From positions 4,092,001 to 4,156,000 of the forward strand of contig NZ_CP021235.1 in the NCBI RefSeq assembly GCF_003585765.1: a DNA stretch of 64,000 bases, read 5' to 3'. Below are positions 32,744 to 36,618 of the stretch, piece by piece. Every line of letters begins with the position of its first letter. Within the stretch, counting starts at the first letter, position 1. The position numbers were made by a program, and so were the translations under genes. The notes beneath the pieces are model-generated. The model had not been told where the DNA came from. It did no database searches and saw nothing but the letters and a program-made list of their open reading frames with translations. This DNA comes from Pontibacter actiniarum (GTDB lineage: Bacteria > Bacteroidota > Bacteroidia > Cytophagales > Hymenobacteraceae).

Positions 32744-34051
32744 ATGCAACTAGAAGAGGACCACCTGGGGCCGCACTTAAATGGTAAACACCTGCGGCCA
32801 GAAAGCTTAATGATGAGCTACGGGTACAACCCTGAATGGTCAGAGATGGCTGTGAAAGCTCCTATCTATCAAACCTCCACCTTTGTTTTTAAAAACGCGG
32901 AAGAAGGCAAGGCCTTTTTCGAACTGGCATACGGCCTGCGCGAAAAGAACGCTGAAGAGCAACTAGGGCTAATTTACAGCCGCCTCAACAATCCCGATCT
33001 GGAGATACTGGAGAACCGCCTCCGCTTCTGGGACGGGGCCGAAGACGCGGCCGTTTTTGCCAGCGGTATGGCCGCCATCAGCACCACACTTCTTGCCCTC
33101 CTCAAACCCGGCGACGTTATCCTGCACAGCGAGCCTATCTATGGCGGCTCTGATTACTACATCAAAAATATCCTTCCTAAGTTCGGTATTCAAAGTATAG
33201 GCTTTCAGGCATGTGCCACCACCGAAGAAGTAGCACAGTTGTTAGAAGAATCTGGTGTAGCAGATAAACTGGCGATGGTATACCTCGAAACGCCGGCTAA
33301 CCCAACCAACCACCTGGTGGATATTGAGGGGTGTGTAGCGCTGGCCAGAAAACACTCCACCGAAGAAAAGAAAGTAGTAGTTGCCGTAGATAATACCTTT
33401 CTGGGGCCAGTGTTCTCTCACCCGCTCAAGCATGGGGCAGACCTGGTGCTATACTCAGCTACGAAGTATATCGGCGGTCACTCCGACCTGATTGCTGGTG
33501 CCTGTGCCGGTTCCGCTGCCTTGATGAAAGCGGTAAAAGGAATGCGCACCTTCGCAGGCTCCATGGCTAGCCCCTGGACCGGCTGGATGCTGATGCGAAG
33601 CCTTGAGACCCTGAAAATACGCATGGAAGCGCAGGCAAGAGGTGCAGAAACTGTAGCTGCCTACCTGAAACAACACCCGAAAGTGGAGAAGATCTACTAC
33701 CTCGGCGACCTGCAGGACAACCCACGGCAACAGGCTATTTATAACAAGCAATGCACCGCTGCAGGCTCCATGATCTCCTTCGACCTGAAAGGCGGTGAGA
33801 AAGACGCCTTCATGTTCCTGAACAGCCTGAAGCTGATAAAGCTGGCAGTAAGTTTGGGCGGCACCGAATCACTGGCCGAGCACCCTGCCTCCATGACGCA
33901 CTCTGATATCTGCCTCGCCGACCGAGCCAAAATGGGCATCGGGGAAGGTATGGTACGCATCTCAGTAGGCGTAGAGCACCCAGAAGATATCATCTCTGAT
34001 ATTGAGCAAGCGCTGGCTAAAGTAGCGGTAGCCGCAGCAGCTGAAGCTTAA
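32744..34051 (+). CDS. Cystathionine gamma-synthase family PLP enzyme
   Basis: 435 aa PLP enzyme of the Cys/Met metabolism family (cystathionine gamma-synthase, gamma-lyase, methionine gamma-lyase, O-acetylhomoserine sulfhydrylase). Seen: APIYQTSTFVFKN, LIYSRLNNPDLEILENRL, the PLP site SATKYIGGHSDLIAG near residues 235-249 with the Schiff-base Lys, TPANPTNHLVDI and SLGGTESLAEHPASMTHSDI in the C-terminal half. The members cannot be told apart by motif alone. RidA (6.3 kb) acts on imines made by this kind of enzyme. Terminator follows. Length is slightly above the family average because of the N-terminal extension. Confidence 0.85.
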   Translation: MQLEEDHLGPHLNGKHLRPESLMMSYGYNPEWSEMAVKAPIYQTSTFVFKNAEEGKAFFELAYGLREKNAEEQLGLIYSRLNNPDLEILENRLRFWDGAEDAAVFASGMAAISTTLLALLKPGDVILHSEPIYGGSDYYIKNILPKFGIQSIGFQACATTEEVAQLLEESGVADKLAMVYLETPANPTNHLVDIEGCVALARKHSTEEKKVVVAVDNTFLGPVFSHPLKHGADLVLYSATKYIGGHSDLIAGACAGSAALMKAVKGMRTFAGSMASPWTGWMLMRSLETLKIRMEAQARGAETVAAYLKQHPKVEKIYYLGDLQDNPRQQAIYNKQCTAAGSMISFDLKGGEKDAFMFLNSLKLIKLAVSLGGTESLAEHPASMTHSDICLADRAKMGIGEGMVRISVGVEHPEDIISDIEQALAKVAVAAAAEA

Positions 34052-34072
34052 CGTATAAGTATGAAAGTATAG

Positions 34073-34104
34073 AAAGGCTGGGGCTACGTATAGCTCCAGC
34101 CTTT
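34073..34104 (+). terminator. Terminator of the PLP enzyme gene
   Basis: 14-bp stem with one G-T pair, arms 34073-34086 and 34091-34104, loop CGTA, then a T6 run. Two AAGTAT-like words (about 34057 and 34066) precede it. Confidence 0.85.
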
Positions 34105-34280
34105 TTTGTTTTGGCAAATACAACGAAACTTGGTCTGTTCTCTTTGCCTTATACCCCAAGAAGGTGCTGTGGCTGTGATATAAGCGCTTTGGCTAGAGCT
34201 AATCAAGTGAACCCACCCCTGCCCCTCCCGAGAGGGAAATTAGTATAAGCTCCGTTAACAGTGGCTAACTGATTTATTCT

Positions 34281-34404
34281 CAGCCCTTGGGTTGAGCGCC
34301 TTGTGCATGTTGCGGTGCCCGTAAGGGCAGCCCGCAACGGAGCGAGGGCAGCTTCAGGCACACAGCGCGATGCCCAAGGACGAGGCCTCGCGGCCGTGAG
34401 CGCT
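34281..34404. repeat. Long composite palindromic non-coding element
   Basis: Nested pairing: CCTTGGG near 34285 with CCCAAGG near 34373, GCGC with GCGC, TGTGC with GCACA, and an inner hairpin at 34309-34338 (GTTGCGG TGCCC gtaa GGGCA gc CCGCAAC). A GAGGCCTCGCGGCC motif and a closing GAGCGCTC follow. No open reading frame of note. Compensating pairs at several levels suggest a structured RNA or a dispersed repeat. Confidence 0.55.
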
Positions 34405-34528
34405 CCAAAGTATAAAGTGGAACAGTAGGTATTTGAGAGCTGGAGGATGAGCAGTGGCTAGAAAGGATAGCTTGGTTGGAGATGCAAAGAACTAAGGCAA
34501 TGGAAGTATAAGCAGGGGCAGTCTAAGG

Positions 34529-34650
34529 CACAAGCGGACGCTTGCGCCAGAGAAGCTGTTTCAAGCATCAGCTGCAAGTATGGCTTTTCAAGCCAGCTGA
34601 GTCACAGACTCAACATCATAGTTAGACACAAGTCTAAAGACTTGCGCCAT
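34529..34650. repeat. REP-like hairpin array
   Basis: Four short palindromes in 120 bases: CAAGCG-GA-CGCTTG (34531-34544), TGGCTT-TTC-AAGCCA (about 34580-34595), TGAGTC-ACA-GACTCA (34598-34612) and CAAGTCT-AA-AGACTTG (34629-34644). The first and last share a preceding CA and a trailing CGCCA and start 98 bases apart. No gene was found in 34105-34848. Confidence 0.6.
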
Positions 34651-34848
34651 GAAAGTCCATGAAGGCGAAAGGGGAACTAATAGCGGAAAGGTACCCACTA
34701 TTCAAAAGTATCATCCCTGTTCATTCTCAAATCCTGAAAATCCTGATCCAAAACCATTAACTTTACAATCGGTTAAACATAGACGCACGTAAAGAAGAAA
34801 CTGTGCAAAGCTGCGTTCATATTTTGCCCATTTAAGCTGAAACACCCT

Positions 34849-36618
34849 TTGGAAGATAAACCTAAAAATAGCGGTAAAGTATTCGACTCTGACGTGTTAA
34901 AGCGACTGTTCACGTTCGTGAGACCTTACGTCAAGACGTTTTACTTCATCATATTCCTGACTTTCGCCTCGGCCATACTGGCGGCCCTGCGCCCGTTCCT
35001 GATTCAGTACACGGTAGACCACGAGATTCTGAACAGCGACTGGGAGGGCCTGAACCGCATGTTTGTGATCCTGGGCGTGTTGCTGGTGGTGCATGCCATT
35101 GTGCAGTACCTGCACACGTACTTTGCGGGTTGGCTGGGGCAGCACGTGGTGCGCGATATCCGCATTAAGCTCTACCGCCACATCCTGGACCTGCGCCTCA
35201 AATTCTTTGACAGAACACCGATAGGTACCCTGGTTACCCGAAACGTGTCGGACGTGGAGACGCTGTCGGATGTGTTTAGCGAGGGCCTGGCGGCCATGAT
35301 CGGCGATATCCTGCAGCTGGTGTTCATCCTGGGCTTCATGTTCTACATCGATTGGGAACTGGCCCTGGTGAGTCTTTCCACGTTCCCGCTCATGATCATC
35401 AGTACCTATATTTTTAAGGAGAAGATCAAAAATACTTTCCAGGAGGTGCGTACGGCGGTGGCGCGGCTAAACTCTTTCGTGCAGGAGCATATTACGGGCA
35501 TGAGCATCGTGCAGATCTTCAACAACGAGAAGCGCGAGATGGAGAAGTTTCAGGAGATCAACAAGGAGCACACCCGCGCCAACGTCCGGTCTGTGCTCTA
35601 CTACTCGGTGTACTTCCCAATTGCAGAGATCATCGGGGCGGCCGGTCTGGGCCTGCTGGTGTGGTACGGGGCCTACGGTGTAATAGAGGACGACACAACG
35701 CTGGGTACGCTGATGGCCTTTATCATGTACATCCAGATGTTCTTCCGCCCCATCCGCCAGATTGCCGACCGCTTTAACACCCTGCAGCTGGGTGTGGTGA
35801 GCACGGAGCGCCTCATGCGCCTGCTCGACAGCAAAGAAATGATTCCGGACAACGGCAGCTATGCCCCCGAAAAGATAAAGGGCAGCGTGCGCTTCGAGAA
35901 CGTGTGGTTTGCCTACAAAGACGAGGACTGGGTGCTGCGCGATATTTCCTTTGATGTGAAAGCTGGCCAGTCTGTCGCGTTTGTGGGGGCAACGGGTGCC
36001 GGTAAAACCTCTGTTATCAACCTGCTCAACCGCTTCTACGAAATCAACAAAGGGCACATTATCATTGATGGGCACGACCTGCAGGAGTATGACCTGAGCG
36101 TGCTGCGCCACCACATCGGCGTGGTGCTGCAGGATGTGTTCCTTTTCTCCGGAAGCATAGCCGACAACATCACGCTAGGCAACAAAGCCATCACGGAGGA
36201 GCAGATCTGGCACGCCGCCGACCTGGTGGGGGCACGCAGGTTTATAGAGCGACTGCCGGGCGGGCTGCACTACCAGGTGATGGAGCGCGGGGCGACCTTG
36301 TCAGTAGGCCAGCGCCAGCTCATCTCGTTTGTGCGGGCCATGGTGTACAACCCGGAGATCATCATCCTGGACGAGGCCACCTCCAGCGTGGACTCCGAAA
36401 CCGAAGAGCTGATACAGTATGCGATAGACCAGCTGATGCACGGCCGTACCTCCATTGTAATCGCGCACCGCCTCAGCACCATCCAGAAAGCCGATAAGAT
36501 TATCGTGCTGGACCGCGGGGAGCTGAAGGAGATGGGCAACCACGAAGAGCTGCTGCGCCACAATGGCTACTATGCCCAGCTGTACCAGATGCAGTACAAG
36601 AACATGATCGACTTATGA
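34849..36618 (+). CDS. ABC exporter half, MdlB-like (canonical Walker B)
   Basis: 589 aa, six N-terminal membrane helices (exporter type) and an ATPase domain. Walker A GATGAGKT at 380-387, an LSVGQ signature at 484-488 (not LSGGQ), Walker B IIILDEATSS with the catalytic Glu509 and DSETEEL. The combination of an intact Walker B with a degenerate signature is that of the MdlB-type partner in heterodimeric exporters. TTG at 34849 is the start; there is no earlier ATG. The following membrane-anchored GyrI-like gene overlaps its stop by four bases. Substrate unknown; lipids or drugs are usual for this family. Confidence 0.9.
   Translation: MEDKPKNSGKVFDSDVLKRLFTFVRPYVKTFYFIIFLTFASAILAALRPFLIQYTVDHEILNSDWEGLNRMFVILGVLLVVHAIVQYLHTYFAGWLGQHVVRDIRIKLYRHILDLRLKFFDRTPIGTLVTRNVSDVETLSDVFSEGLAAMIGDILQLVFILGFMFYIDWELALVSLSTFPLMIISTYIFKEKIKNTFQEVRTAVARLNSFVQEHITGMSIVQIFNNEKREMEKFQEINKEHTRANVRSVLYYSVYFPIAEIIGAAGLGLLVWYGAYGVIEDDTTLGTLMAFIMYIQMFFRPIRQIADRFNTLQLGVVSTERLMRLLDSKEMIPDNGSYAPEKIKGSVRFENVWFAYKDEDWVLRDISFDVKAGQSVAFVGATGAGKTSVINLLNRFYEINKGHIIIDGHDLQEYDLSVLRHHIGVVLQDVFLFSGSIADNITLGNKAITEEQIWHAADLVGARRFIERLPGGLHYQVMERGATLSVGQRQLISFVRAMVYNPEIIILDEATSSVDSETEELIQYAIDQLMHGRTSIVIAHRLSTIQKADKIIVLDRGELKEMGNHEELLRHNGYYAQLYQMQYKNMIDL

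Follow-up and report, generated by a model that had tools for sequence, protein, structure and literature searches.

A REP-like hairpin array and its linkage to a structured repeat module in Pontibacter actiniarum

Classical REP, BIME and REPIN elements of Proteobacteria are short intergenic palindromes that occur in many copies, fall into subfamilies, form clusters and have a matching RAYT (PMC2817692, PMC3116915); as described in PMC2817692, REPs are usually present in over 100 copies. According to the sections of PMC6006769 that treat it (Quentin et al. 2018), RAYT subclass 2.6 of the Bacteroidetes holds group 5 of Bertels, carries the motif set NH[LIV]H, WQ and YIH[QN]NP, and comprises genes flanked by atypical hairpins that lack GT[AG]G and recur elsewhere in the genome. 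RAYTs of other groups are described in PMC8266576 as binding a folded single strand, with cleavage guided by the GTAG foot. A further class, the CGTC-tagged palindromes, consists of 8- to 9-base-pair palindromes, most with a CCA tail, from five phyla including Bacteroidetes, for which the text of PMC3733652 reports no transposase association.

Here, we analyzed a window (the whole 64,000-nucleotide stretch of Pontibacter actiniarum DNA under study, contig positions 4092001 to 4156000) in which a first-pass annotation had placed four palindromes within about 120 bases of a long gene-free stretch. The sequence bears out this description. About 800 bases between an ORF end at 34051 and an ORF start at 34849 are free of ORFs, and the four stems are perfect and nonoverlapping, have arms of 6 to 7 bases and loops of 2 to 3, and all lie inside 34527-34649: H1 at 34531-34544 (CAAGCG and CGCTTG around GA), H2 at 34581-34595 (TGGCTT and AAGCCA around TTC), H3 at 34598-34612 (TGAGTC and GACTCA around ACA), and H4 at 34629-34644 (CAAGTCT and AGACTTG around AA). 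The outer two, which had been called alike, indeed start 98 bases apart and both continue into GCGCCA. When loops of 2 to 4 bases were allowed, none of 5,000 dinucleotide shuffles contained four hairpins with arms of at least 6 (shuffle mean, 0.13), and 2 of 5,000 contained four with arms of at least 5 (mean, 0.44); along the 64 kb, four hairpins were found in 1 of 2,555 stepped segments of 126 bases. The array belongs to a composite repeat, with similarity across about 400 bases, of which it forms the right part and a structured module (module M) the left. This composite, which reaches left to about 34257, was absent from the first-pass annotation. The features discussed below are as follows.

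34257 to 34284, + strand: left edge of the composite, common to many full-length copies (18-copy alignment).
34285 to 34410, + strand: module M, a 125-base structured repeat (RNA model R1, fold and covariation).
34411 to 34526, + strand: conserved tail between module M and the array (18-copy alignment and own-genome matches).
34527 to 34549, + strand: H1, the REP-A hairpin GGCACAAGCGGACGCTTGCGCCA (its places in the genome and the same hairpin on both RAYT-A flanks).
34581 to 34595, + strand: H2 hairpin TGGCTTTTCAAGCCA (hairpin scan and pairing in 63 copies).
34598 to 34612, + strand: H3 hairpin TGAGTCACAGACTCA (hairpin scan and pairing in 63 copies).
34625 to 34649, + strand: H4, a REP-E type hairpin GACACAAGTCTAAAGACTTGCGCCA (core comparison and pairing in 63 copies).
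Genome positions 445924 to 446472 (locus L072:2425-2973): RAYT-A, an intact gene (REP_Tyr_transpos match).

Other sequence features were seen around the array. A terminator-like hairpin of 16 pairs lies at 34071-34106, directly 3' of the upstream gene (shuffles average one such site), and the array is therefore placed beyond the likely end of the upstream transcript. A G+C-rich palindrome, CCCACCCCTGCCCCTCC..GAGAGGGA, at 34212-34243 occurs once in the 64-kb window, and by eye several sister genomes have similar strings in the corresponding intergenic region. Counting both strands of positions 1-64000, we found the heptamer AAGTATA 56 times, against 4.2 expected from shuffles; by eye, gene ends and repeat tails are also rich in it.

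Matching the array against the genome, as the first-pass annotation had proposed, revealed a dispersed repeat. A 401-base query found 73 matching pieces in the organism's own 4.97-Mb genome, and with a 601-base query many copies extended left to about 34260. With up to two mismatches allowed, REP-A occurs at 72 own-genome places and the reversed pattern at none; a limit of one mismatch leaves 62 copies, and 45 copies of its 19-base sequence are exact. Nor are the hairpins without relatives in sister species, since the composite repeat matched in 41 of 50 genus genomes and REP-A, at up to one mismatch, in 16 of 50, with 2 to 107 copies. Among 53 REP-A copies conservation covers 24 bases, GGCACAAGCGGACGCTTGCGCCAG, and fades on either side, the conservation of the core being by construction because the copies were chosen by a pattern that fixes most of it. 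We also grouped copies from the examined stretches of the own genome into 50 clusters and called ORFs with a simple finder. REP-A is mainly intergenic: by these crude ORF calls, two clusters overlap ORFs of 374 and 529 codons, and the remaining overlaps involve ORFs of 91 to 154 codons. In three clusters (L106, L093 and L074; genome positions 1579999, 3867119 and 4759320), a third core, CTAGCT..AGCTAG, stands between modules in a similar shell.

REP-A thus resembles classical REPs in being a short, intergenic, many-copy palindrome with subfamilies, clusters and a matching RAYT, but it differs from them in several respects. A GTAG or GTGG foot lies within 11 bases 5' of the stem in just 4 of the 53 copies, and the 62 copies at one mismatch compare with the usual count of over 100 (PMC2817692). 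Close REP-A pairs in the own genome are mostly direct (10 direct, 2 inverted), whereas classical ones alternate; in one sister genome (G001), every one of the 10 close pairs is inverted, all with a single configuration, as in REPINs. The CGTC-tagged palindromes described in PMC3733652 share with REP-A the 8- to 9-base-pair palindrome, the CCA tail and the occurrence in Bacteroidetes; however, the REP-A consensus has no CGTC foot, and REP-A has a transposase association.

The RAYT-type TnpA gene that the first-pass annotation said to look for is present. The own genome has 5 to 6 RAYT matches, of which four loci were examined and a further weak match was left out. Three encode intact proteins above the NCBIfam REP_Tyr_transpos cutoff of 80 (98.2 bits for RAYT-A, 98.4 and 109.7 bits for the others), and the fourth, RAYT-D, is frameshifted. 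On both flanks, each of the four bears a hairpin core of its own: REP-A, identical to H1, at the intact RAYT-A; CGAGCT at RAYT-B; CGGAAG at RAYT-C; and a CCAGTT palindrome at the broken RAYT-D. The H4 core is found at none of these four loci, and H1 is the only hairpin of the array whose palindrome flanks one of these RAYTs. Near RAYT-B there is also a perfect inverted repeat of 29 bp with a 2-base loop (L073:2315-2374). A sequence search of RAYT-A against solved structures gave weak matches only, the best being IS200-type transposases (E = 0.011). The RAYT-A translation contains NHVH, WQ and YIHQNP, motifs by which it would fit subclass 2.6, and the likeness extends to the host phylum and to dispersed flanking hairpins without GT[AG]G. 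Because this foot is missing from both REP-A and subclass 2.6, we file H1 under subclass 2.6 and not under classical REPs. The shared shell with exchangeable cores, the core mosaics and the linked structured module do not appear in the passages of PMC6006769 that treat the subclass, although part of this may stand in its additional motif table.

Flanking cores are also a feature of RAYT-A relatives elsewhere. At 45 of 80 such loci from other Bacteroidota, a 6-base hairpin core was common to both flanks, versus a mean of 0.05 with shuffled flanks (20 rounds) and 5.0 with flanks from other loci; the same test detected none at the other 35. The H4-like cores CAAGTC or AAGTCT stand at RAYT loci labeled Emticicia, Ekhidna and Fulvivirga, and CGAGTT, the alternative form of H4, at a RAYT locus in Kordia, suggesting that hairpins of the H4 type probably also belong to RAYTs, although their core is absent from the four examined own-genome loci. 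At seven loci, hairpin doublets beside RAYTs show a weak likeness to the H2-H3-H4 block (E = 0.001 to 0.008), which we take as a hint only. Within the genus, at least one shelled hairpin was seen at 30 of 70 RAYT loci (L192-L261) in a scan run without a control. RAYT matches occur in 49 of 50 genus genomes, 40 of them with matches above the cutoff; a genome often has more than one, and some are broken by stops, a pattern that suggests gain and decay.

The stems of the H2-H4 block vary from copy to copy while complementarity is kept, as the first-pass annotation had supposed for the outer two hairpins. Our alignment of the block (A4) comprises 63 of 80 rows, a few of them lengthened by 1 to 2 bases, and adds six to an earlier set (A2; 57 of 80 rows) that omitted some nearly full copies. 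In these 63 distinct copies, 95.4% of cells are paired and 13 of 20 pairs show two-sided changes; doubly changed cells number 91 versus 29.4 after shuffling (standard deviation, 6.1; 0 of 500 shuffles as high), with the reservation that related copies are not independent. Sliding the partners abolished the pairing signal, and the 57-copy set gave similar values (96.2% paired, 81 doubly changed versus 27.3). By hairpin, H2 is 97.5% paired with 1 of 5 pairs doubly changed (U-A to C-G, in 13 copies), H3 is 93.7% paired with 7 of 7, and H4 is 95.6% paired with 5 of 8, its two main forms, CAAGTC..GACTTG and CGAGTT..AACTCG, standing in the same surroundings. The first-pass annotation had read the difference between the outer two stems in this way. 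What stands of this is the shared outer shell, which in H4 (..CAC, core, GCGCCA) is nearly that of H1; the stem core is different, and H1 and H4 belong to different REP subfamilies. Compensatory changes become visible when each hairpin position is compared from copy to copy.

The composite with module M is a more unusual part of the locus than the REP array itself. The module consists of a long interrupted stem (CCTTGGG.. with ..CCCAAGG), a GCGC/GCGC pairing, a variable inner stem, two inner hairpins and a 3' hairpin. The window copy, which is in the seed of RNA model R1, scores 143.6 bits against that model and folds at -67.7 kcal/mol (z = -4.0); 2 of 4 other copies fold more weakly (z = -1.7 and -2.0). 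A first alignment (A1) holds 33 of the 64 M copies found, mainly copies with long loop inserts or truncated ends being omitted, and in it 97.3% of cells are paired and 49 are doubly changed versus 14.0. In a second alignment (A3), fitted to the model and holding all 61 R1 matches in 56 sources, other genera included, 96.5% are paired and 170 are doubly changed versus 41.3. At two positions U-G outnumbers every other pair, which favors the + strand as the strand on which module M would fold. In some copies (L012:1527-1692, L014:1528-1673 and others), an additional short insert, CTTATCGAGGGCCCCTACCCCCA or CTAATAGAGGGCCCCTACCCC, sits in loops of the fold and is perhaps another tiny repeat. Rfam gave no match over module M in the window or at seven further loci; below the gathering threshold and off the module, HOTAIRM1_2 (E = 0.98) and CbSR4 (E = 3.1) appeared over 34621-34820, and flanks at other places gave Thr_leader, L20_leader and ar35.

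R1 matched in 67 of 200 family genomes, in 43 of 50 genus genomes and in 4 of 6 genera, and since up to 17 candidates were scored per genome in the family scan, its per-genome counts are floors. In a sample of the order under strict filters, 10 of 291 genomes had matches, all from the same family. At least 119 copies were found in one genome, and 34 in the examined stretches of the own genome. Three ideas about the composite were discarded. Two copies without the G+C-rich payload of M (2072130- and 4242774+), which share a TGAGCGC direct repeat, seemed to be empty sites with a target-site duplication; we dropped this reading because the folds place the payload inside one long stem, so that deletion between short repeats is simpler. 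Coding potential of the tail was set aside, the open frame that one copy shows by eye being interrupted in others. As for concerted evolution, identity of M is 0.881 within genomes (323 pairs) and 0.864 between them (952 pairs), a difference too small to support it; at the same position between genomes, identity is 0.860 (36 pairs).

In size and repetition module M is similar to ERIC-like intergenic imperfect palindromes, but it differs from them in that its fold is preserved even where genera differ in stem sequence. The main text of PMC2267715 contains no match for four Bacteroidetes names, and a literature search for Pontibacter with palindromes, repeats or structured RNA found no paper on such repeats. 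It is quite possible, if short of probable, that module M represents an undescribed class of structured, strand-specific repeat, probably acting at the RNA level, with tens to more than 100 copies per genome in one bacterial family, in which a conserved internal loop (UUGA facing GAU) persists while stems are rewritten by paired changes between genera; its junction with RAYT-type REP hairpins in Pontibacter would then join an RNA-like element to one mobilized as single-stranded DNA.

Taken together, we consider it highly probable that the array is a mosaic built from REP hairpins of the kind tied to Bacteroidetes RAYTs, in which H1 copies the hairpin of RAYT-A, H2 to H4 are related subfamilies, mobilization by RAYT-A is proposed by analogy, and the whole has been retained or multiplied within a composite, to the right of the older module M. 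By analogy with other RAYTs, RAYT-A would recognize the folded hairpin on single-stranded DNA and cut and join near the hairpin foot, thereby copying or moving the hairpin into intergenic DNA. Stems would stay complementary because only foldable copies are recognized and spread, and subfamilies would diverge through paired changes; in the Pontibacter lineage, the array may then have been kept or amplified beside the older module. As REP-A has no GTAG foot, RAYT-A would need another recognition feature, for which the nearly invariant shell, with an A.C mismatch in the predicted fold, is a candidate. Recognition and past movement by RAYT-A are likely; we infer its binding, cleavage and movement of REP-A from other RAYTs. 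No transposition event and no clean target site were seen. The first-pass annotation, which spoke of REP elements mobilized by RAYT transposases, was therefore right about the kind of element for H1, which flanks an intact RAYT-A; mobility is a matter of analogy, and for H4 the four examined loci offer no matching core.

The distribution of REP-A in the genus bears on whether such movement continues. Among the matches listed, all five genomes that have a relative of RAYT-A at 75% identity or more (split into two pieces in G015) hold REP-A, compared with 11 of the 45 genomes without one (Fisher p = 0.002, kinship ignored). This co-occurrence is partial: those 11 make up most of the 16 REP-A genomes, and four of them carry 79 to 99 copies, suggesting that REP-A survives where no close RAYT-A exists or that a different RAYT serves it. 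The hairpins could accordingly be relics, formerly mobile and now merely inherited and reshuffled by recombination, a reading that these 11 genomes, the frameshift in one own-genome RAYT and the direct close pairs, which suggest local duplication, all favor. The 45 exact copies in the own genome and the intact reading frame of RAYT-A argue against it, and we hold it to be unlikely, though deserving of some weight.

How tightly the pieces travel together bears on a second alternative, in which the whole composite (M, tail and H1 to H4) is one nonautonomous element moved by other machinery, with the REP hairpins as passengers. M, REP-A and the H2-H4 block are joined in 31 of the 50 clusters, all pieces lie on one strand in 47 of 50, and the similarity runs across some 400 bases, as expected of a unit. 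However, REP-A stands alone in 9 of 50 clusters, including those around RAYT-A, and the pieces also part company at the corresponding intergenic site of 10 sister genomes (unrelated hairpins being left uncounted). Nine of the 10 have module M there, and the array or part of it lies beside M in 5 (L262, L263, L267, L268 and L269), with REP-A intact in 2 (L262 and L268); the hairpin array is absent from 4, which have M without it (L264, L266, L270 and L271), it differs among the others, and L265 has a decayed REP-A without M. Of the two, the hairpins thus vary more readily and M is the more durable, probably being old at this site. Movement of the composite as a unit is, on balance, quite unlikely.

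The third alternative is that the hairpins act on RNA by stabilizing, processing or ending transcripts, that this selection keeps the pairing, and that the link to the transposase is historical. By the crude ORF calls, 33 of 50 clusters lie downstream of a same-strand gene (binomial p = 0.033; 33 of 48, p = 0.013, after removal of two that have no scorable 3' gene) and 6 of 50 lie between divergent genes. The positional bias and the paired changes in H2-H4 are consistent with an RNA role, but at the array site itself the terminator-like hairpin intervenes after the upstream gene and a scan found no sigma-70-type promoter-like site, neither scan being proof, and the array is missing there from sister species. 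We regard this reading as improbable. A chance cluster of palindromes is refuted by the genome-wide repetition, the shuffles and the paired changes, and its probability is negligible.

The reading that we prefer, a mosaic of RAYT-type hairpins joined to an older module, adds to the biology of these elements in two ways. In the passages of PMC6006769 that treat it, subclass 2.6 is described only through atypical structures around its genes; here, the hairpins follow a simple grammar of a nearly invariant shell and an exchangeable core, on the basis of the 45 RAYT loci with one core on both flanks and of cores that differ between RAYTs. The evidence supports the view that the REP array is of a known, RAYT-type kind and that its composite linkage to module M is the more unusual aspect. 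If it is transcribed, module M would add to structured RNAs a family of high copy number that has no entry in Rfam, and because it has been kept at the array site in 9 of 10 sister species, its possible role deserves attention.
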